Source of the DNA: an uncultured Pseudomonadota bacterium
Lineage (GTDB): Bacteria; Pseudomonadota; Gammaproteobacteria; Burkholderiales; Thiobacillaceae
Assembly: GCA_903835655.1 (NCBI GenBank)
Contig: CAILNT010000037.1
Coordinates: 1 to 64,000 of the forward strand
Reading direction: 5' to 3'
DNA: 64,000 nt
The notes under the pieces are model-generated. The model had not been told where the DNA came from. It saw only the letters and a program-made list of their open reading frames with translations, and did no database searches. Positions within the stretch are counted from its first letter, which is position 1, and the number at the start of each line of letters is the position of its first letter. The translations under genes were made by a program, and so were the position numbers. This document shows, in pieces, positions 11,585-25,154 of this stretch.

Positions 11585-12505
11585 TCAATTCCGTTTCGGT
11601 TGGAACTGTCCGCGCAGTTCACCCATTGTGGCGGCGAATCGCATGAGCCAGTAGAACCGTCTTCTACCATCCAGGCTCGATAATATATGCCACAGATGAG
11701 AGAGTAGCTTGCGCAGTATGGACAACGCGATGCCTTCGTGCTCACGAACGGATACCGACGAGTAAGACCTTAGATAACTTTTTTTCATCATGTAAAGGGT
11801 CTTCATGCGTTCATGTTCCAGCAAATGATACTGGCGCATCCTGGGCGAATACAGGATTCTGATGCCCGCAGCCCTGGCCCGGTCGATAAATTCAGCGTCT
11901 TCACCGCCCATCAGGTTATGTCCGACAGGGCCCAGTTTGGTGGAAAAGCCATCGATGGCCGCAAACACCTCGCGGCGGACGGCTATGTTCCCGCCACTCG
12001 GATTTTTCATCCCGGCGACGACCTCCATTTCCCTTTCCCCCAAATCGTATTCCGGAAACGGACGAACCGGAATCATGTATTCACCGCGTACGTGTACCCA
12101 TGGTGGTTCCGATCCGTCCCAGGCCGGATGCATCCATCCGCAATAGATGCCGAAGCAGGGTTCACGGGTCATCACGTCGGCCAAGGCTAGAAGATAATCG
12201 CGGGTAACGATCTGGTCGTCGTCGATGAAGCAGAGCATGCTGGAATGCGTCGCCTGGATGGCGGCGTTGAGCGCAAACGACTTTCCGGCTCGAGGCTCTT
12301 CCAGCCAGCGCAAAGCAAGCGCTTCAGCCGGCCACTGGACCGCCAGCGAAGCAAGCATCTCCGTGGTACGGTCACTGCATGCGTTGGCAACGACCAGTAT
12401 TTCCGCCTCGAGGCCCGTTTCCCACGCCACCGCGCGAAGCGACTCCAGCGTTTGAAGCAGCAACTGGGCACGGTTGTGGGTGCAGACGATGATGGACAGG
12501 TCCAT
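11585..12505 (-). CDS. Glycosyltransferase family 2
   Basis: MDLSIIVCTHNRAQLLLQTLESLRA, AEILVVANACSDRT, MLCFIDDDQIV, GEDAEFIDRARAAG. Confidence 0.9.
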   Translation of the reverse strand: MDLSIIVCTHNRAQLLLQTLESLRAVAWETGLEAEILVVANACSDRTTEMLASLAVQWPAEALALRWLEEPRAGKSFALNAAIQATHSSMLCFIDDDQIVTRDYLLALADVMTREPCFGIYCGWMHPAWDGSEPPWVHVRGEYMIPVRPFPEYDLGEREMEVVAGMKNPSGGNIAVRREVFAAIDGFSTKLGPVGHNLMGGEDAEFIDRARAAGIRILYSPRMRQYHLLEHERMKTLYMMKKSYLRSYSSVSVREHEGIALSILRKLLSHLWHILSSLDGRRRFYWLMRFAATMGELRGQFQPKRN

Positions 12506-12523: not shown

Positions 12524-13447
12524 TCAGTGCAACGGCTTTGAGCGGCGGGATGTCCAGCCGATGAGGTAGCCGACAAAATAGGCCACGTTCATTTCCTGGC
12601 GCAAGGTGGCGTTGCGGCCGCTGCTGCGAAACGCCCGCCAGACCGCCAGGAGTGCTCGCCCGATCTGGCCTGCCAGATAAAACGGCGGCAACCGGGACGC
12701 GTAGCCGCGCAGGCGTATGGCCTCCATGCGGCCCTGGCGGTAATGCAGATCGATGAAATATCGCCGATCCAGCTTGACTGCCTGGATGCGGTGGTGAATC
12801 ACGGCATCGGGCGTCCACCAGACCTTGAATCCAGCGTTAAGCAATCGACGGTAAAAATCCACTTCCTCACCGCCGGTGTTGTCCTGGCCCTTGCGGCCAA
12901 GGTCGGCATCGAAGGCGCCAATGCGGCCGCACAGGTTGCTGCGAAAGCCGAAGTTGCCGCCGTAGAAGGACTCCCCGGGGCCGGTCAACTGCGCGATGGC
13001 TGCGTGGCGGTTGAGCTGCCCTAGAAAACCGAGCAATTCGTCGCGCAGCCAGACTGGCCGCCCGCCTTCGAACAGCACCTCGATGCGGCCACCAAAGGCA
13101 TCCGGGGCGTGCGCCTCGATCAACCGCTCGTAGGCACAAAGCCAGTCCGGGTCGGCCGTCTCGTCGTCGTCAAGAAAAATGATGTATTCGCCGCGGGCCT
13201 CGGCGATGGCGCGGTTGCGGGCATTGGATAGCCCAAGCTTGGCCTCTCGCACCACGCGCACCTTCCAGCCATCTGGCCAGGGATGGCGTGCAAGCAATTC
13301 CGGGGTGGAATCGCTGGACGCGTTGTCGACGATCAGAAACTCCCATTCTGCCTTGGGCAGCCTCAGCCGTGGAAGATCCGAGAGGGTACGCGGCAGGCGG
13401 TCGGCATGATTATGGGTGCACAGGGCGACGGTATAGGCACAAGTCAT
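12524..13447 (-). CDS. Glycosyltransferase family 2
   Basis: YTVALCTHNHADRLPRTLSDL, EFLIVDNASSDST, EYIIFLDDDETADPDWL, GEEVDFYRRLLNAGFKV. Confidence 0.9.
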   Translation of the reverse strand: MTCAYTVALCTHNHADRLPRTLSDLPRLRLPKAEWEFLIVDNASSDSTPELLARHPWPDGWKVRVVREAKLGLSNARNRAIAEARGEYIIFLDDDETADPDWLCAYERLIEAHAPDAFGGRIEVLFEGGRPVWLRDELLGFLGQLNRHAAIAQLTGPGESFYGGNFGFRSNLCGRIGAFDADLGRKGQDNTGGEEVDFYRRLLNAGFKVWWTPDAVIHHRIQAVKLDRRYFIDLHYRQGRMEAIRLRGYASRLPPFYLAGQIGRALLAVWRAFRSSGRNATLRQEMNVAYFVGYLIGWTSRRSKPLH

Positions 13448-14241
13448 CGTCCGACTCCGGGCAGGCGACTGGTCAGGCGATCGAGATAGTAGCGCGCGGC
13501 GTGAGTCAGACTGCCATCGTTGCTGCCCAGACGTATCTTGCGCAATAGCATGGTCGGGGTGTCAGTGCCCGCGATGTCCAGGCGACGAATACGGAAACGA
13601 TTCACGTCCTGGCGGTTGAAACCGGGCTGTGTGGCGAAGGCTGCGCGGTAGCCGGCGGCCCGGGTCGCGGCTTCTACCCGCGAGTCGAGATGGCCGTAGG
13701 GATAAGCGAGATAGCTCACCTCATGACCCAGCAACTCCGTCAGAAACGAGCGTGAGCCCTGCAACTGGTCGGCCAGTGCGGCATCGTCCAGCGTGGGTAG
13801 GCTGGCATGGCTGCGGCTATGGGAATGAAAAGTGCAACCTCGTTGCTGCATGTCGCGGATGTCATCGACGTTCAGCAGCGGATAAGTGACGCCGGCCGGG
13901 TTGCTGTTCCGGGTCCAGGCATCCTCGCCACCGATGAGATCGCTGACCAGGAAAACGGTGAACGGCCAACCCAGCTTTTCCAGTACCGGCAGGGCGTGGT
14001 CGCGCACACCGCAAAACCCATCATCGAAAGTGATCACGATCGCCTTCTCCGGCAGCCGTTCACCACCTTCCAGCCAGTCCACCAGCGCATCCACCGTAAC
14101 ACCCAGGAAACCGGCGCGGGAAAGCGCTCGCATGTGTGCCGCAAAATCCTTCGAACCGATGCAATAGCGCGCTTCCCAATCGTTACTGGCAACCCCTACC
14201 CGGTGGTACATGAGCACGGGAATGCGCGCCGCCTGATTCAT
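13444..14241 (-). CDS. Polysaccharide deacetylase (NodB/CE4-like)
   Basis: IPVLMYHRVG, AIVITFDDGFCGVRDHALPVLEKLGWPFTVFLVSDLIG, HSHSRSHASL, YLAYPYGHLD. ATG at 14241. Confidence 0.92.
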   Translation of the reverse strand: MNQAARIPVLMYHRVGVASNDWEARYCIGSKDFAAHMRALSRAGFLGVTVDALVDWLEGGERLPEKAIVITFDDGFCGVRDHALPVLEKLGWPFTVFLVSDLIGGEDAWTRNSNPAGVTYPLLNVDDIRDMQQRGCTFHSHSRSHASLPTLDDAALADQLQGSRSFLTELLGHEVSYLAYPYGHLDSRVEAATRAAGYRAAFATQPGFNRQDVNRFRIRRLDIAGTDTPTMLLRKIRLGSNDGSLTHAARYYLDRLTSRLPGVGR

Positions 14242-15197
14242 GCATGAATCCGATCGATCAGGATGACGAAGCTGCGATACCACGATGCGGGCAGCAAGGC
14301 GACCAGGACATGGCGCAGGTCCTTGAAAGAGAAGGTCAGATGCGCCGCGGCATGGCGAAACAGTCTTTGCGCCGACACTAGATCGCGTTTCCAGAAGGCG
14401 CGATAGGCTTGGCGCAAGGTCTGGCCCTCGGTCAGATCTTTCCTCCGCCTCACCGGGATATGCTGCACCAGACCAGGATTGGCCGCGATAAATGCCTTCT
14501 GCGCCTCCAGCGCGTCCAGCACCTGGCGCCACTTCACGGCGGAAACCTGACTCTGGCCATGCCAGCGATAGTATGCCAGGACCTCGGGCACGCGCGCGAT
14601 ACGCCGGGTATGCGCCAAAACACGCAACCAAAAATCGTAGTCCATGGAGGAAAAGCGGCGCTCGGAAAAGCCACCTATGCGCTGCACCACCGCGCGTTTC
14701 AGCAAGGCGGCGTGTATGGGCCAGGGACAGGAGCGCAGGAAGGCCTCTACCGGGTCGGCTTTTTCGTATTCAGGGGGCACGTAGGGCTCGGAGTTCACCC
14801 CGTCTCCGACGTTCTTCCAGCCGCAGTAGGCGAGATCCACCCCCTGTTCGGAGAGGAGGCGATACAGCTTCCCCAGGGTTTCCGGCGCCCACCAGTCATC
14901 GGCATCGAGGAAGGCGATGAACTCGCCGCGTGCCACGCGCAGCCCATGGTTGCGAGCCGGATAAGGACCCACCCGGCTGGTGTAGAGTTGGCGGATGCGG
15001 CCGGGATATCGCCGTGCCAGCTCGCCAACGATACGCACCGAATCATCAGTCGATCCATCATCCACCACGATGAGTTCGACTGCCGCATGGCTCTGCCCCA
15101 TCACCGATTCGATCGCCTGAGCGACGTAAGGCGCTGCGTTGAAGCAGGGCATGATCACCGAGATCAGGCCGGAGATGGGTAGGGTATCCAGGTTCAT
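14238..15197 (-). CDS. Glycosyltransferase family 2
   Basis: ISVIMPCFNAAPYVAQAIESVMGQSHAAVELIVVDDGSTDDS, EFIAFLDADDWW. Confidence 0.92.
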   Translation of the reverse strand: MNLDTLPISGLISVIMPCFNAAPYVAQAIESVMGQSHAAVELIVVDDGSTDDSVRIVGELARRYPGRIRQLYTSRVGPYPARNHGLRVARGEFIAFLDADDWWAPETLGKLYRLLSEQGVDLAYCGWKNVGDGVNSEPYVPPEYEKADPVEAFLRSCPWPIHAALLKRAVVQRIGGFSERRFSSMDYDFWLRVLAHTRRIARVPEVLAYYRWHGQSQVSAVKWRQVLDALEAQKAFIAANPGLVQHIPVRRRKDLTEGQTLRQAYRAFWKRDLVSAQRLFRHAAAHLTFSFKDLRHVLVALLPASWYRSFVILIDRIHA

Positions 15198-15233: not shown

Positions 15234-16376
15234 CTATTCCAGGGCTGTTCGGTAGGCATCCTCTGCCGCTTTCACCACGTTCGACCAGGTAAAGCGGCGG
15301 GCGAAGGCGCGGCAAGTCTCTGCTTCGAAGCGGATAGTACCGGATAGGAAAGCTTCCAGCGCCAGGCAAAGCGATTCCACGTCCGGCCTGTCGATGAAAT
15401 AGCCGGATTTTCCAGCACCTACCGCCTCCGCCGCCCCGGCTAGGCGCGCCGCCAGACTGGGAACGCCACTGGCAGCCGCCTCCAGATAGACGATGCCGAA
15501 CCCCTCATGGCTACCCGGCACGATCGAGGCGGCCAGAACGAACAGATCCGCTTCCCCATAGAGACGCATCAAATCGGCATCGGACACGCGGCCGACAAAC
15601 TGGACCCTGTCGCTCAATCCCATGTGCCGAGCCTGGCGTTCCAGATCGGCGCGCAAAAAACCGTCGCCGGCCACGATGTATTCGAATGCGTAACGATCCT
15701 TCAGGCGTTCCAGGGCCGCAAGCACCAGATCGATATTTTTGCGTGGTTCGGACAAGCGGCTCACGCTCAACAACCGGATCGGGCTCGTGCCACGTGCAGC
15801 GCGCTGCACGGAAAAAAAGCGTTCGCTCACGCCCACATAGGCCACCGAGGTCCTGCCGCGGCAATCGGGAAAGCGTTCGAGAAACACCGTTTCCGTATAT
15901 CGACTGTTGGCGAGGATATGCCGGGCCGCGGGGAGCGCGCGCGCCAACAACTTATGCCCACGGCGCAACCAGAGCGGGCGCAACAGTTCGCGTACGCGAT
16001 CCGAATGGCGCCAAAAAAACGGCAGGCGATCCAGCGAGAAGGGCGCACAGGGAACATAGGCGCGCAAAAAATCGTTGCCGTGAATGGATACCACCGTAGG
16101 GCGCCCACTCAGGGCAAGCCAGGCATAACCCGCATTGAGCACATGCCAGATATCGGCCTTGCAGGTGTCGAACAGACGCAGATCGAGGTCCTGCGCGAAC
16201 GTCAGGCCGGGAACGACTTCCAGTCCCGGCAGGTCGATCTCGCCCCCAGGATGGCGCAACGTGAACACGGTAACCGCGTGCCCGCGGCGCACCAGTTCGC
16301 GGCAGAACTCGAAGGCGTAGGTTTCGACACCGCCGATGTCGGGAGGGAACTCCGGACTGACGATGGCGACCTTCAC
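15234..16376 (-). CDS. Glycosyltransferase family 4
   Basis: VKVAIVSPEFPPDIGGVETYAFEFCRELVRRGHAVTVFTL; RLLSVSRLSEPRKNIDLVLAAL; SHEGFGIVYLEAAASGVPSLA. GTG start at 16376. Confidence 0.92.
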   Translation of the reverse strand: MKVAIVSPEFPPDIGGVETYAFEFCRELVRRGHAVTVFTLRHPGGEIDLPGLEVVPGLTFAQDLDLRLFDTCKADIWHVLNAGYAWLALSGRPTVVSIHGNDFLRAYVPCAPFSLDRLPFFWRHSDRVRELLRPLWLRRGHKLLARALPAARHILANSRYTETVFLERFPDCRGRTSVAYVGVSERFFSVQRAARGTSPIRLLSVSRLSEPRKNIDLVLAALERLKDRYAFEYIVAGDGFLRADLERQARHMGLSDRVQFVGRVSDADLMRLYGEADLFVLAASIVPGSHEGFGIVYLEAAASGVPSLAARLAGAAEAVGAGKSGYFIDRPDVESLCLALEAFLSGTIRFEAETCRAFARRFTWSNVVKAAEDAYRTALE

Positions 16377-18256
16377 GCGGCCGTACCCAGCCAGGCAGCG
16401 TGTGAGGCGATAGTATCCGCTTGCGCCAACTCGCCGCCCATCAGTGGGCGCCAGCCAAGTTTGCAGGGCACGGCGATCCATGTCAGCAAACTCGACTGTG
16501 GTCCGCAGTTGACCAGCAACACCTCGGGGCGCCCGGCGTCGCCGAGGTTCGCAACCAAAATGCCCGGCTCGCTGGGGGTCGGACAGGCCATCTGCCGATC
16601 CGCTGGCACCGCCTCGTCGTTGGCGCCCAGCAGCGAGGGGGGAAGTCCCAGGGCGAGGTCGGCCAGGTGCAGCATGGCCTGGGCGAGCAGGCGCCGGTAA
16701 TCCAGGTTATCGGGGTAAAGGCGGCATACGTGGTATAGCGCTTCGGCCCAGAAGCCGAGCGCGTATTTCTCGTATTTCAGTTCCTTCCAGCGCAAAACGA
16801 TCCCGCTGGCGGCCGCGAAGCGCAGGACATCATGGATGACTTGATCGGTCGCCGCATCGGGAAGACGGCGCTGGTGCCTGGCGAGATCCATCAGATTGAT
16901 GCTGAGATAATGGTGCGCCCAGGTCCGCACACAGAGTTCGCGGTCGACGTAACCGCCCGGCATGACCAGGCGCGGGAAGCGAACCTTGATATCGGGCAGG
17001 CGCGGAATCAGGTATTTCCAGGCGAGGCGCTTCAGGGCGCGCAGAGACAGCGGCAGGGCCGCTGCCTGGGCAGTAGGCAACATGGTCAGCGTAATCACCT
17101 TGAACAGTGGCCGGTAAAGCCATTCCGCTGGTCGGGCTGCGAGCACTTCACGGGTTGCCAGGCAGGCTGCATGCACGTGGTCCGCCAGGCGGACATCGCC
17201 GGTCAGTTCACGGAAGCGATCCAGGGCAACCGTAATGTCGAGCTGAGTGTTCAGCACCAACATATTGCTTTCCGCCTTGCCGAATGCGCGACTCTTCAGC
17301 CAGCGGAAAGGCCCTTTGTTGAGCCGTAGGATATCGTGTTCGAGTTCATCGTGCAGAAACCAGGCCCCCCCCGCCACGGGGTCGCGCTGGTCGGCGAGGA
17401 ACTCTGCCGCGAGCTGCATCGCCGTGCCGATGACCGGGTCATGACTTTCACTCCAGGCATCCATGAGCAGGTGCAGCGCACTGGTGTTTAGGCGGTAGTG
17501 CGCCTCCATGTCCTGCGTCCATTCACCATGGCGCCAACCACCATCGGGCGACTGCCGCGTCAGTAGCGATAACAGCAACTGCGCCTTGAGCAGGCCGTAA
17601 ATCCGCTTGCCGGTAGACCGTTGCAAGCCAGTCATGATCAGATGCAGCGCGTGGGCATCGTTTTCCGAACAGATCCGGCGCTTGAACGGCCAGGCGTAGC
17701 GGTCTTCGTATACCCAGCCGTGGACCAGATGACGGTAAACATCGGCGGGCCTGCCATAGCGCGTGTGCGACCCGAGTAGAAAATACCCCTGGGTCTCGAT
17801 GGGCGCGCAGCCTTGCAACTCATCGACGAGTGCGGCGTCTTCCAGCCGCCAGATCACCGCGTCCAGGGTCCATGGGTTCGGGATGGACCCGAAGGAAATA
17901 CTCACCCCGGATACGCCCAGATCGAACACCTCTAGTTCCGGCGCACGCTCCTCCAGAATATGACCTTGCTCATCGAGGCGACGCAGGTTTGCCGCTACCG
18001 GCAGCCAATAAGTGGGCGCAGTGACGTCACGCCCCAGGAACAGCCAACCACCGGCGACGCAGCGGACAAGCCGATAGCCCCCGGATAAGCTGAACCGGGC
18101 AAGTTCGGTAACACGCAGGAACAGGCAGCGTGCGTCGTGAAAGGAATCAAGAAGCCCTTGCACGTTCCCGGAGTCAAAAAGGCCACGCCGGCATTCCGTC
18201 ATATCAAGCAACGGTTTGCTATCGGAGAAAAGCGAGCACAAGTCAAAATTGGTCAA
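16373..18256 (-). CDS. Uncharacterised 627-aa protein in glycan cluster; possible helical-toroid enzyme
   Basis: Long ORF overlapping the next gene start by 4 bp. Segments such as QSPDGGWRHGEWTQDMEAHYRLNTSALHLLMDAW and YVDRELCVRTWAHHYLSINLMDLA suggest an alpha/alpha toroid. No family firmly recognised. Confidence 0.75.
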   Translation of the reverse strand: MTNFDLCSLFSDSKPLLDMTECRRGLFDSGNVQGLLDSFHDARCLFLRVTELARFSLSGGYRLVRCVAGGWLFLGRDVTAPTYWLPVAANLRRLDEQGHILEERAPELEVFDLGVSGVSISFGSIPNPWTLDAVIWRLEDAALVDELQGCAPIETQGYFLLGSHTRYGRPADVYRHLVHGWVYEDRYAWPFKRRICSENDAHALHLIMTGLQRSTGKRIYGLLKAQLLLSLLTRQSPDGGWRHGEWTQDMEAHYRLNTSALHLLMDAWSESHDPVIGTAMQLAAEFLADQRDPVAGGAWFLHDELEHDILRLNKGPFRWLKSRAFGKAESNMLVLNTQLDITVALDRFRELTGDVRLADHVHAACLATREVLAARPAEWLYRPLFKVITLTMLPTAQAAALPLSLRALKRLAWKYLIPRLPDIKVRFPRLVMPGGYVDRELCVRTWAHHYLSINLMDLARHQRRLPDAATDQVIHDVLRFAAASGIVLRWKELKYEKYALGFWAEALYHVCRLYPDNLDYRRLLAQAMLHLADLALGLPPSLLGANDEAVPADRQMACPTPSEPGILVANLGDAGRPEVLLVNCGPQSSLLTWIAVPCKLGWRPLMGGELAQADTIASHAAWLGTAA

Positions 18257-18371: not shown

Positions 18372-19406
18372 TCACGCCGCCCCTCTTTGTGCCCAGGCCT
18401 TGCTCCAGGCTCGAACCACTTCCGGGCAGTCGCCGAAGCGGCCATGCACGTAGTCCATGATCGCGCGTCGGGTCACCAGGTACTGCAGCCGGTTGCCGCG
18501 TCCCAACCAGGCGAGTGCGTAATCCCGCATGGCCCAGAACCAGCGCTTGTGCCAGGATTCGTTTCCCTGACCCAGCACGAAAACGGGCACCAGTTTTCGC
18601 AAACTCCTGGCCCCTAGACGTAGCCGTGCCGTAATCGCAGCGTGCCGCTGGAACCACAGCAACTGGTTGCGAACACTGAAATAGACGCGAAGCGGCGAAG
18701 ATTCGCTCCCGAAGGAGACACCAATCCTGTGCCAGATTTTCGCCGTGGGAACCACGAGATTGCGCCAGCCCGCCTCTCGGGCGCGGAAGCACCAGTCGAC
18801 TTCCTCCCAGACCAGAAAAAAGGCTTCATCCAGCAAGCCGATCTGCCTAGCCACCTCGGCGCGAAAAAAAAGCGCCGCGCCACAAGCGTAGTCGGTATCG
18901 TGATCTGACATGTCCAGGGTACGCGCTTCCGCGCCCTGCCCTGGCCACTCAAGTTGTAAAGCCGCAGAATTCCAGTGCGCCCCATCGAACCAGACCTTCT
19001 CGGGCTCATCGAAGTAATAGATTCGGGCACTGAACACCCCCGCGTCCGGGTTGCGCTGAGCAGCATCGAACAGACGTTCCAACAGGTCGGGAGCCACGAC
19101 GGTGTCGTTGTTGAGCACCAGCACAAACCCGGCCCCTAGTTCCAGCGCGCGGCGCGTACCGACGTTATTACCGCCGGCATAGCCCAGGTTGTGTCCGGTT
19201 TCGAGCAGGGTCAGTGGATAGGGCGCGACATAGGACCGCAGATGCACTAGGGAATCATCGCTCGACCCGTTGTCGACCACGATCACATCGAAGTTTGGAT
19301 AGGTCAACGCCTGTAGTGAATCCAGGCAGGCAAGGGTATCCGCGTACCCATTCCAGTTCAGGACGACGATGGAAATCCTGGGAGCATTCATCTTTGAAAT
19401 CGCCAT
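18372..19406 (-). CDS. Glycosyltransferase family 2 (rhamnosyltransferase-like)
   Basis: ISIVVLNWNGYADTLACLDSLQAL, DVIVVDNGSSDDSLVHLR, FVLVLNNDTVV, FFLVWEEVDWCFRAREAGW. Confidence 0.92.
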   Translation of the reverse strand: MAISKMNAPRISIVVLNWNGYADTLACLDSLQALTYPNFDVIVVDNGSSDDSLVHLRSYVAPYPLTLLETGHNLGYAGGNNVGTRRALELGAGFVLVLNNDTVVAPDLLERLFDAAQRNPDAGVFSARIYYFDEPEKVWFDGAHWNSAALQLEWPGQGAEARTLDMSDHDTDYACGAALFFRAEVARQIGLLDEAFFLVWEEVDWCFRAREAGWRNLVVPTAKIWHRIGVSFGSESSPLRVYFSVRNQLLWFQRHAAITARLRLGARSLRKLVPVFVLGQGNESWHKRWFWAMRDYALAWLGRGNRLQYLVTRRAIMDYVHGRFGDCPEVVRAWSKAWAQRGAA

Positions 19407-22232: not shown

Positions 22233-23492
22233 CTAGTTGAGAGCGTGAACGCCAGCCGCCATCTCCGTATGTATTTTCCCGAACATCCAATCCCCCTGCA
22301 TTTCCACAAATCCTTCCTGCATACTCTGCGTGCGGTTGCGGCCGGTCGCCACAACCTGAAAGTGATGTAAGCCTTCCTGATAAAACACGTTCTTGGTCAC
22401 TTCCCCGGTATTGATACCCAGTCGTACCGAGTAGACCCCCGGAAGAAATGGAAATTTCCGGATGGCAAACCTCAATACATAGATTCCGGGTGCATGGACT
22501 TGACCGGAGAATTGGGTTTCGCTGATCTCGGTGCTGAGATACAGAAAATCCACGGTATGAATGCCGAAACCGAATATCGGATTGACCAGGGTCTGGTGCG
22601 TTCTGAGTGTCACATTCAATGTGACGTCGGAATGGTACTCGATATTTTCGAGTGGGTCGCCTGCCGAGTCCACGAAGGCGAGGTCGATCAACTCGACCTC
22701 GCCCGTCGTTTCGGCGCTTGCGGACCGGGAAGCGTTCAGTCTAACTTTTTCATCGTTTTGTGAATAAAAGAGATCACAGACTGTGCTGGACACCCCATCC
22801 GCTGCGACTCGACCGTGGTCCAGCAAGATCACGCGCGAACAAAGCCGCTCCACCTGACGTATATTGTGGGAGACCAGCAGTACGGTTCTCTGCTGCCTCT
22901 TGATCAAGTCCTCCATACGATCGAAGCATTTACGCTGGAATGCTAGATCCCCGACCGCAAGCACTTCGTCCACGATCAATATTTCTGCTTCGATGCTGGT
23001 GGCCACGGAAAAAGCGAGTTTGACCTGCATCCCGGAGCTGTAACGCTTCACCGGGGTGTCGATGAACTCCGCCATCTCCGCAAATTCCACGATCTCGTCG
23101 AATTTCCGGTCGATTTCTTTCTTCGACAGCCCGAGGATGGCTCCATTGAGGTAGACATTTTCCCTCCCAGTGAAATCCGGGACGAACCCAGCGCCGACCT
23201 CGATGAGCGGGGCGATGCGGCCATCGACCCGGATGGAGCCACGGGTGGGCGTACTGATTTTCGCCAGCATCTTGAGCAGGGTGGATTTGCCCGCGCCATT
23301 GTGGCCGATGATGCCGACAACTTCGCCTGGTTCAATGGAGAAACTGACGTCGTCCAGCGCCTTGAAGAGAGGAGGTTCTACTACCATTTTCCCAGCCAGA
23401 CGTGCTCCCGCATTCAACAGGGTCTGCTTCAGCCCTTGCAGGGCGCCCAGGCGATATTCCTTGGTGACATGATCGACTTCGATGATGGGCAT
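22233..23492 (-). CDS. wzt: Polysaccharide ABC transporter ATP-binding protein with Wzt-type C-terminal domain
   Basis: VVGIIGHNGAGKSTLLKMLAKISTPTRGSIRVDGRIAPLIEVGAGFVPDFTGRENVYLNG; C-terminal beta-rich region (HSDVTLNVTLRTHQTLVNPIFGFGIHTVDFLYLSTE). Confidence 0.93.
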   Translation of the reverse strand: MPIIEVDHVTKEYRLGALQGLKQTLLNAGARLAGKMVVEPPLFKALDDVSFSIEPGEVVGIIGHNGAGKSTLLKMLAKISTPTRGSIRVDGRIAPLIEVGAGFVPDFTGRENVYLNGAILGLSKKEIDRKFDEIVEFAEMAEFIDTPVKRYSSGMQVKLAFSVATSIEAEILIVDEVLAVGDLAFQRKCFDRMEDLIKRQQRTVLLVSHNIRQVERLCSRVILLDHGRVAADGVSSTVCDLFYSQNDEKVRLNASRSASAETTGEVELIDLAFVDSAGDPLENIEYHSDVTLNVTLRTHQTLVNPIFGFGIHTVDFLYLSTEISETQFSGQVHAPGIYVLRFAIRKFPFLPGVYSVRLGINTGEVTKNVFYQEGLHHFQVVATGRNRTQSMQEGFVEMQGDWMFGKIHTEMAAGVHALN

Positions 23493-23530: not shown

Positions 23531-23998
23531 TCAGGTTCGGCGAACAGGATATGTATTTCCAAGTTCGCGAGCATAGGCCATGACCTTGGGTACCACGGCG
23601 AGCAGTGTTGGGGTGAGGGACGCGACAGCCGTATAAATTCCGCCCATCTTGTCGGCGGCGTACGCGTGAGCGATCAGATTACGAAGTTCGCGAATTTGTA
23701 TGAGTTGCATCGAGTCATCTACCCAGCCCCGCTTTTCGGCCCGATGTATGCGGTCCAACAGGGTATTCGTGGGTGTGAGTTCCAGGTCGTCCACCAGCCG
23801 CATGACGCGCTGCGTCAACAGGTCGGAGAGTCGGGCAAAGCGACTGGCCAGTGCTTCCAGTCGTTCCAGTTCGTCGGGCTGGAAGTTCTTGACCGGGAAC
23901 AGGCTTCGGGTTCGATCCAGAGAATGGCGCAGGTGTTCCGCCGCATTTTCCAGGTTCGACAATTCCTCCTGCAGCAGCAACAGTTTGTCTGCTGTCAT
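23531..23998 (-). CDS. hepT: HepT-like toxin (HEPN family)
   Basis: HEPN RX4HXY motif RNLIAHAY; overlaps the nucleotidyltransferase gene by ATGA. Confidence 0.85.
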   Translation of the reverse strand: MTADKLLLLQEELSNLENAAEHLRHSLDRTRSLFPVKNFQPDELERLEALASRFARLSDLLTQRVMRLVDDLELTPTNTLLDRIHRAEKRGWVDDSMQLIQIRELRNLIAHAYAADKMGGIYTAVASLTPTLLAVVPKVMAYARELGNTYPVRRT

Positions 23999-24276
23999 AG
24001 ACGAATGCCCCCTTTGATGGCCAGTCGTGCGAAGGGAAGGGAAAGGTCGTTCTGGATGACCAGATCTATGCGTTGATCGCCGAGTTTCTCATGCAGGCGG
24101 GCGAGTATGGCAAGTTTCGCCATCAGATCGATACGCGATGTAAGTACCAGGAGATCGATATCGCCCCCCTTGGCATGGTCGTCGACACGAGAGCCGAAGA
24201 GGTAGACAGGCGCATCCCTGTCGACCGCGTGGATGGCCTCCGTGATGGCCCGCCGTTGGGCATCGCTTAGTCGCAT
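23995..24276 (-). CDS. mntA: MNT-type nucleotidyltransferase antitoxin
   Basis: VYLFGSRVDDHAKGGDIDLLVLT. ATG at 24276. Confidence 0.87.
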   Translation of the reverse strand: MRLSDAQRRAITEAIHAVDRDAPVYLFGSRVDDHAKGGDIDLLVLTSRIDLMAKLAILARLHEKLGDQRIDLVIQNDLSLPFARLAIKGGIRL

Positions 24277-24445
24277 GTGGCGGGTTTTGATGGCATCTCG
24301 AACATCCGAGCCCCTCGAAAGGTTACGTGCCCACATCCAACGGTGTCCATAGCTCAAACACGGGTGTGAACCATGCCCGACACAGTGCCTGATTTGAGCC
24401 CAATTGGGAAGCAGGCACGCGCCGGCGGTTCAAGTCACCGGGCAC

Positions 24446-24494: not shown

Positions 24495-25154
24495 TCAGGC
24501 CTGGTCGGCCCTGCGGCGACGGGCGACGAAGCCGATCAGACCCAGACCCGAGAGCATCAGGGCGTAGGTTTCGGGCTCGGGCACCGGCGCGGCGGTCATC
24601 ACGTAGACACTGTCGATCACCACATCTTTGGCCGGATAGCCACTCGTGTTGAAACTGAAAGCGATGTTGTACATCCCCGCCGCGGTGACCGTCTTTTGGC
24701 CGGAGAAGTCCAGCCAGGTCGTGCCGGGTTTCTGAGAAACAGAATAGTTTGCCAGCACGTCGCCGGCAATTGAACCCGAGAACGTCGCGTCATGCGCATT
24801 ACCGTAGCCATTGGCGGGGGCGTAGGCACTGAACCCGATCTGGTAGGTGCCAACACCCAGATACACTTGTTGCGTCAAGCTTTGGTTCGAGAAATCGCTG
24901 ACGAAATACGCACCGTGCGTGCCGGCTGCGGCATTTTCTGCGGCGACGGCCTCGCCAAACGCACTGGTTGGGTAAGCAGCCGTAGAACCATAGGTGATGA
25001 CGACTGCGGGATAGCTATCGGTGACCGCGCCACTGAGGGTCCAGCCGGCCAGTCCATTTTCGAAGCTGCCGTTGGTGACCAGGTTGGTGGCCGCCGAAGC
25101 GCTCAGCGGCGCAAACAGCGCGGCGGCGGCGATGATGATCAGATTTTTGCGCAT
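24495..25154 (-). CDS. PEP-CTERM sorting domain-containing protein
   Basis: Signal peptide MRKNLIIIAAAALFAPLSASAA; C-terminus VPEPETYALMLSGLGLIGFVARRRRADQA. Confidence 0.93.
   Translation of the reverse strand: MRKNLIIIAAAALFAPLSASAATNLVTNGSFENGLAGWTLSGAVTDSYPAVVITYGSTAAYPTSAFGEAVAAENAAAGTHGAYFVSDFSNQSLTQQVYLGVGTYQIGFSAYAPANGYGNAHDATFSGSIAGDVLANYSVSQKPGTTWLDFSGQKTVTAAGMYNIAFSFNTSGYPAKDVVIDSVYVMTAAPVPEPETYALMLSGLGLIGFVARRRRADQA

Follow-up and report, generated by a model that had tools for sequence, protein, structure and literature searches.

The window, by which we mean the whole stretch of 64,000 nucleotides analysed, carries an exopolysaccharide (EPS) locus with the following genes:

11585..12505, minus strand, GT2 glycosyltransferase that lacks a second domain and resembles the N-terminal half of the GT2-'sulfatase' fusions found in related loci
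12524..13447, minus strand, GT2 glycosyltransferase (Pfam)
13444..14241, minus strand, polysaccharide deacetylase of 265 aa (Pfam)
14238..15197, minus strand, GT2 glycosyltransferase (Pfam)
15234..16376, minus strand, GT4 glycosyltransferase (Pfam), whose GTG start overlaps the stop codon of the next gene listed
16373..18256, minus strand, gene of the toroid-family protein, 627 aa, TTG start at 18256
18372..19406, minus strand, GT2 glycosyltransferase upstream of the toroid gene (Pfam)
22233..23492, minus strand, Wzt-type ABC exporter ATPase with a Wzt_C domain

An earlier note on this DNA had described a 627-aa protein at 16373-18256 without stating its strand. The open reading frame exists and lies on the minus strand, from the TTG at 18256 to the stop at 16373, and a plus-strand reading of the same interval was ruled out by its many stops. 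Both peptides quoted in that note were recovered in the translated protein. The 4-bp overlap with the downstream GT4 gene was also found (GTG at 16376-16374 over TGA at 16375-16373, read GTGA), and the toroid gene does lie between glycosyltransferase genes, with GT2 on one side and GT4 on the other. Further downstream, an ATGA overlap of 4 bp (14241-14238) joins a GT2 gene to the deacetylase gene, whose product has TFDDG and HSHSRSH motifs and no obvious signal peptide. A GAGG motif precedes the TTG start, a close relative (L011) aligned across residues 1-627, and more than 40 uninterrupted relatives were found in other species. In comparison with an 89%-identical relative, the dN/dS was about 0.23, and the toroid gene is therefore under purifying selection. 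On the basis of the dN/dS, the uninterrupted relatives and the GAGG before the TTG, this open reading frame is a real gene. On the export side, no ABC2-type permease was detected within the contig, and candidates are present elsewhere in the genome. Two other minus-strand features adjoin this part of the window. A weakly HepT-like protein (RNLIAH motif) and a nucleotidyltransferase lie next to the Wzt gene (23531-24357) and resemble a HEPN/MNT toxin-antitoxin pair, and a protein with a PEP-CTERM sorting signal adjoins the EPS locus (24495-25154).

We then compared the protein with known families. Pfam and NCBIfam scans of the 627-aa protein gave no significant family, Pfam scans of 41 members of its family gave none either, and searches of the PDB sequences with the protein and with the family profile returned chance matches only. 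As far as Pfam, NCBIfam and PDB sequences go, the claim that it matches no characterised family is thus borne out. The Pfam matches of the 41 members included none to the AGE superfamily (PF07221), C5-epim_C (PF06662) or GH76 (PF03663) profiles, and GH88 (PF07470) appeared in 1 of 41 at a non-significant E of 0.018-0.036. Profile comparisons with hhalign gave a probability of 0.1 both for AGE (3 sequences) and for heparinase II/III (8 sequences), each a weak negative from a shallow profile with no positive control. A search for PF06662 in 200 Pseudomonadota genomes returned only a thioredoxin-domain protein, a false lead that left nothing from which to make a C5-epimerase profile; for GH88 and GH76, the class offered too few or too weak members for a profile comparison. 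Overall, the protein belongs to an uncatalogued family, while its fold superfamily and its type of locus are both known. The earlier proposal of a new enzyme family is reasonable, the protein being a putative enzyme.

The structure was predicted with AlphaFold2 from an alignment of 41 family members. The full-length model had a pLDDT of 93.8 and a pTM of 0.94, and the toroid modelled alone a pLDDT of 94.5. Three domains were delimited:

17837..18256, minus strand, N-terminal all-beta domain, residues 1-140 (DSSP on the AlphaFold2 model)
16577..17830, minus strand, (alpha/alpha)6 toroid, residues 143-560 (AlphaFold2, Foldseek)
16376..16579, minus strand, small C-terminal beta domain, residues 560-627 (AlphaFold2)

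The model has twelve helices forming six hairpins that span residues 198-533 (198-215/218-233, 254-271/274-288, 335-352/358-373, 378-392/403-426, 450-464/468-484 and 498-513/518-533), and its leading Foldseek matches are toroids, which places it in the (alpha/alpha)6-toroid (six-hairpin glycosidase-like) superfamily. This bears out the earlier guess of an alpha/alpha-toroid, the best matches being toroid epimerases, lyases and hydrolases. The Trp/His/Arg-rich N-terminal half described in the same note was only partly recovered: such a conserved stretch exists (residues ~155-306) and is the start of the toroid, whereas the N-terminal part proper (1-140) is the beta domain.

Against the PDB, Foldseek with the full-length model returned a polysaccharide lyase, GH76, the glucuronyl epimerase GLCE, cellobiose 2-epimerases and disaccharide phosphorylases, the best E-value belonging to a lyase that we take to be PL33. 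For the toroid alone, the best PDB matches by E-value were cellobiose 2-epimerases and the nearest by TM-score were GH76 hydrolases (0.53-0.55). All matches were distant (TM at most 0.55, identity 7-15%), so that Foldseek places the modelled protein in the toroid superfamily only, and in no one family. A search of BFVD with the model gave nothing informative.

Each of the known toroid systems resembles the protein in part. The AGE superfamily (cellobiose 2-epimerase, mannose isomerase, YihS) shares the (alpha/alpha)6 toroid and is among the best toroid matches, but at a TM of 0.3-0.5 and an identity of 7-15%; moreover, AGE enzymes are a single helical domain, unlike the window protein (PMC13308652). 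For the catalytic His residues and Glu of AGE enzymes, the family alignment offers the invariant H243, H253, H302 and E306 as candidates for comparison. The GLCE-type D-glucuronyl C5-epimerases (PF06662) have a beta domain ahead of the helical catalytic domain (PMC13308652), and in the window protein, too, a beta domain comes before the helices. They matched the full-length model at an E of 1e-4, but at a TM of only 0.24-0.33. The catalytic set of the human enzyme is E499, Y500, N510, Y560 and Y578 (PMC13308652), and the family alignment contains no invariant Glu-Tyr pair, a catalytic feature of this enzyme type. The alignment also lacks an invariant Asp-Asp pair of the GH76 kind, and against the GH76 alpha-1,6-mannanases the identity is 9-12%. 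Known GH76 members are secreted and catabolic. The PL33 and DS-epi1 group shares a toroid plus a beta fold, but with another domain order: in PL33 the toroid is N-terminal and the beta-sheet domain follows (PMC11848413), whereas here the main beta domain comes before the toroid. Finally, the haloarchaeal proteins Agl32 and AglQ are helical toroid-superfamily proteins of glycan assembly pathways, which either act on lipid-linked uronic-acid glycans or are required for them. Agl32 is a D-glucuronyl C5-epimerase for which one helical domain with this general fold is predicted (PMC13308652), and AglQ is required at a step preceding the appearance of the fourth sugar on dolichol phosphate (PMC3827465). 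In contrast to the window protein, both are archaeal, of a single helical domain and tied to dolichol-linked N-glycans.

Toroid enzymes keep their active sites in the loops that feed the inner helices. Of 44 invariant toroid positions in the alignment, 37 lie in loops or first turns feeding inner helices (Fisher p = 2e-5), the inner and outer labels being our reading of the helix order and not measured from coordinates. This is the pattern expected of an active site. Two segments stand out:

17492..17545, minus strand, invariant loop before the second inner helix, residues 238-255, DGGWRHGEWTQDMEAHYR
17237..17362, minus strand, residues 299-340, before and in the third inner helix

The first contains the invariant residues H243, W246, E251, H253 and R255, and the second W299, H302, D303, E306, K327, N331, N336 and D340. 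The candidate active-site residues are E198, H243, E251, H253, R255, H302, D303, E306, K327, N331, N336, D340, R439, Y450, D457 and E548; the C-terminal domain (~560-627) has no invariant residue in the alignment. Conserved acidic residues in a central cavity, for which the earlier note proposed to look, have indirect support in the invariant Glu and Asp of these loops, with inner helices assigned by helix order.

The family has a sparse, patchy distribution, with members in about 1-2% of related bacteria. It was found in 7 of 61 near-relative genomes, in 6 of 399 from the order and in 5 of 369 from the class; each count includes the genome of the window itself. When 84,980 species genomes were scanned by pattern, 43 loci were found, nearly all in Beta- and Gammaproteobacteria, the exceptions being one record each under the labels Desulfobulbaceae, Nitrospirae and Bacteroidales, the last two of which may be binning errors. 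No relatives were found on plasmids or viral contigs.

The relatives, too, lie in EPS loci of Beta- and Gammaproteobacteria. Among the 23 loci flanked on each side by 6 kb or more, we observed a GT4 or WbsX gene in 22, a polysaccharide deacetylase in 21, a Wzt/Wzm or Wzx exporter gene in 21 and a sulfotransferase-like gene in 17; counts of 'GT2-sulfatase' were inflated by the shared GT2 domain and left out. The usual order is the family gene, GT4 or WbsX, GT2, deacetylase and GT2. The family tree implies five or more switches of exporter type (Wzt/Wzm or Wzx). The protein is therefore independent of the export route, and for that reason it probably works before export. A crude hydropathy scan detected neither a signal peptide, in agreement with the earlier note, nor a clear membrane segment in the window protein or in any of the 41 members. 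The absent signal peptide and the retention across exporter switches support the proposal that the protein acts in the cytoplasm on a lipid-linked glycan. The window's own EPS locus showed no sulfotransferase. The genome (G000) has four sulfotransferase genes (PF13469) elsewhere, on contigs C118, C7, C61 and C100, so that the polymer may nevertheless be sulfated.

One of these loci belongs to a published system. The window protein is about 39% identical to a protein of Thauera aminoaromatica S2 (L049). In that genome, the published primers for tmz1t_3244 have perfect matches immediately upstream of the family gene, and the tmz1t_3249 primers match the deacetylase, to which the window deacetylase is 60% identical. 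The gene order Wzx, family gene, WbsX and AsnSyn agrees with EPS cluster 1 of Thauera MZ1T (PMC4784049), which differs from the window in having a Wzx-type gene instead of Wzt. Given the homologous sequence, the shared neighbours, the exact primer matches and the gene order, the family is that of Tmz1t_3245. Its tabulated homologue is RGS1_10432 of the psc1 cluster of Rubrivivax gelatinosus, which was not marked with an insertion in a transposon screen that marked neighbouring genes (PMC3684757). Two EPS clusters in the literature thus already include the gene as a hypothetical protein, both entries being labelled 'hypothetical' or 'unknown function' with no assigned role (PMC4784049, PMC3684757); a full-text literature search for Tmz1t_3245 returned only one of these two papers. 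In MZ1T, a floc-defective mutant carried a nonsense mutation in the deacetylase and regained flocculation on complementation, and the EPS attributed to the equivalent cluster was reported to contain Rha, GalA, GlcNAc and FucNAc (PMC4784049).

We tentatively propose, at somewhat less than an even chance, that the protein is a cytosolic (alpha/alpha)6-toroid enzyme that edits the undecaprenyl-linked EPS repeat unit, most likely by isomerisation or epimerisation. It would act at the inner face of the membrane, where an anionic sugar of the lipid-linked unit would be bound by the invariant His, Glu, Asp, Arg, Lys, Asn and Tyr residues that are clustered on one side of the toroid. The likeliest reaction would be isomerisation or epimerisation of one sugar, with C5 epimerisation of a uronic acid as an example, and the edited sugar would let the GT4 or WbsX enzyme of the overlapping or next gene extend the chain. 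N-deacetylation would come next, with sulfation in some species, and then export by Wzt/Wzm or Wzx. We rank this chemistry first because Agl32 and AglQ are toroid precedents on lipid-linked uronic-acid glycans, because the MZ1T EPS contains a uronic acid (galacturonic acid; PMC4784049) and because the overlapping glycosyltransferase gene could need an edited sugar. The cellobiose 2-epimerases as best E-value matches of the toroid, the confidence of the model, the inner-loop invariants, the absent signal peptide, the synteny with deacetylase and GT4/WbsX and the exporter switches speak for this reading. Against this, no family-level link to any epimerase was found (hhalign against AGE included), one member weakly resembles GH88, the toroid is nearer to GH76 by best TM-score, and the sugars reported for MZ1T include no obvious C5-epimerised uronic acid (PMC4784049). 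Computation here established the gene, its fold class, the conservation pattern, the synteny and the independence of exporter type; cytosolic location, catalysis and a lipid-linked substrate are inferred, and the epimerase chemistry is a conjecture.

The main rival, which we consider only a little less probable, is a cytosolic glycoside hydrolase or phosphorylase that would use two of the invariant carboxylates to trim or proofread the lipid-linked glycan or to free stalled intermediates. The top TM-scores of the GH76 endo-mannanases point this way, as do the many invariant Glu and Asp (E198, E251, D303, E306, D340, D457 and E548) and the presence among the Foldseek matches of MmpH, a methylmannose polysaccharide hydrolase of the same fold. 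In disaccharide phosphorylases, which are also among these matches, a beta domain precedes the toroid, as it does here. However, the identity is 7-15% with no family profile match, E245 is substituted in L020 and L051, and a degradative step within a biosynthetic operon demands a special reason. The same lack of a family-level match to known toroid enzymes would suit other toroid chemistry, such as that of a transferase, a dehydratase or an isomerase acting on a sugar nucleotide before its incorporation; we regard this as improbable, since the toroid carbohydrate families known to us act on glycosides or free sugars.

Little credence is given to a non-catalytic scaffold that would bind the growing lipid-linked chain and hold it for the glycosyltransferases and the deacetylase. 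The gene overlap, the tight synteny with these genes and a very basic conserved set (R406, K409, R410, R429, R439 and R460) would fit such a role, but such a concentration of invariant His and acidic side chains in the inner-helix loops is typical of enzymes. Least probable of all is that the protein is a polysaccharide lyase, or an enzyme of the DS-epi1 kind, that acts on a uronic acid through a Tyr/His/Asn mechanism. Lyases of polysaccharide loci are usually periplasmic, the heparinase II/III comparison failed, and the larger beta domain stands on the wrong side of the toroid, against the best full-length E-value (PL33) and the invariant Asn, His and Tyr of the family. PL33 and DS-epi1 have a common fold and Tyr/His apparatus (PMC11848413).

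The editing enzyme that we favour would matter in several respects. The family is uncatalogued, conserved, enzyme-like and confidently modelled, and its loci are tied to wastewater flocculation (viscous bulking by MZ1T) and, in Rubrivivax, to biofilm formation. The constant deacetylase and frequent sulfotransferase neighbours suggest a new step in the synthesis of charged biofilm polymers, and the function is directly testable in T. aminoaromatica and R. gelatinosus, both of which have been used as laboratory systems in published work. Epimerase activity, if true, would add another kind of enzyme that edits uronates, of a new type, and would bear on glycosaminoglycan synthesis. As a long shot, a cytosolic uronyl C5-epimerase, an N-deacetylase that is likewise cytosolic and PAPS-dependent sulfotransferases might together form a heparan-sulfate-like maturation route on lipid-linked units; floc- and biofilm-forming Beta- and Gammaproteobacteria would then make glycosaminoglycan-like polymers with a toroid epimerase of a new type.

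Several other features of the family loci were observed. In the sub-branch of L038, L039, L041, L043 and L044, the loci have sulfotransferases, the deacetylase went undetected in most, and several contain a glycosyltransferase with a weak, below-cut-off similarity to exostosin/GT47 (E about 1e-4 to 1e-3). A Sulfotransfer_4 domain fused to an inositol-monophosphatase-like domain is encoded at L029:14096-15469 (minus strand), with relatives in L038, L039 and L044, and could recycle the PAP by-product of sulfation. Six family loci (L018:2016-5537, L026, L028, L040, L045 and L046) encode a VanZ plus heparinase II/III-like protein, a second toroid-type protein within those clusters. Fusions of GT2, membrane and PF00884 'sulfatase' parts, about 1050 aa long, occur at L013:16426-19602 and in L015, L016, L017, L018, L019, L037, L040 and L047, and mz1t_3253 of MZ1T carried the annotation 'sulfatase'. 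In all nine copies read, a Thr (TAPSL/M) replaces the formylglycine Cys/Ser; these fusions are therefore probably not sulfatases and are perhaps phospho-transferases instead.
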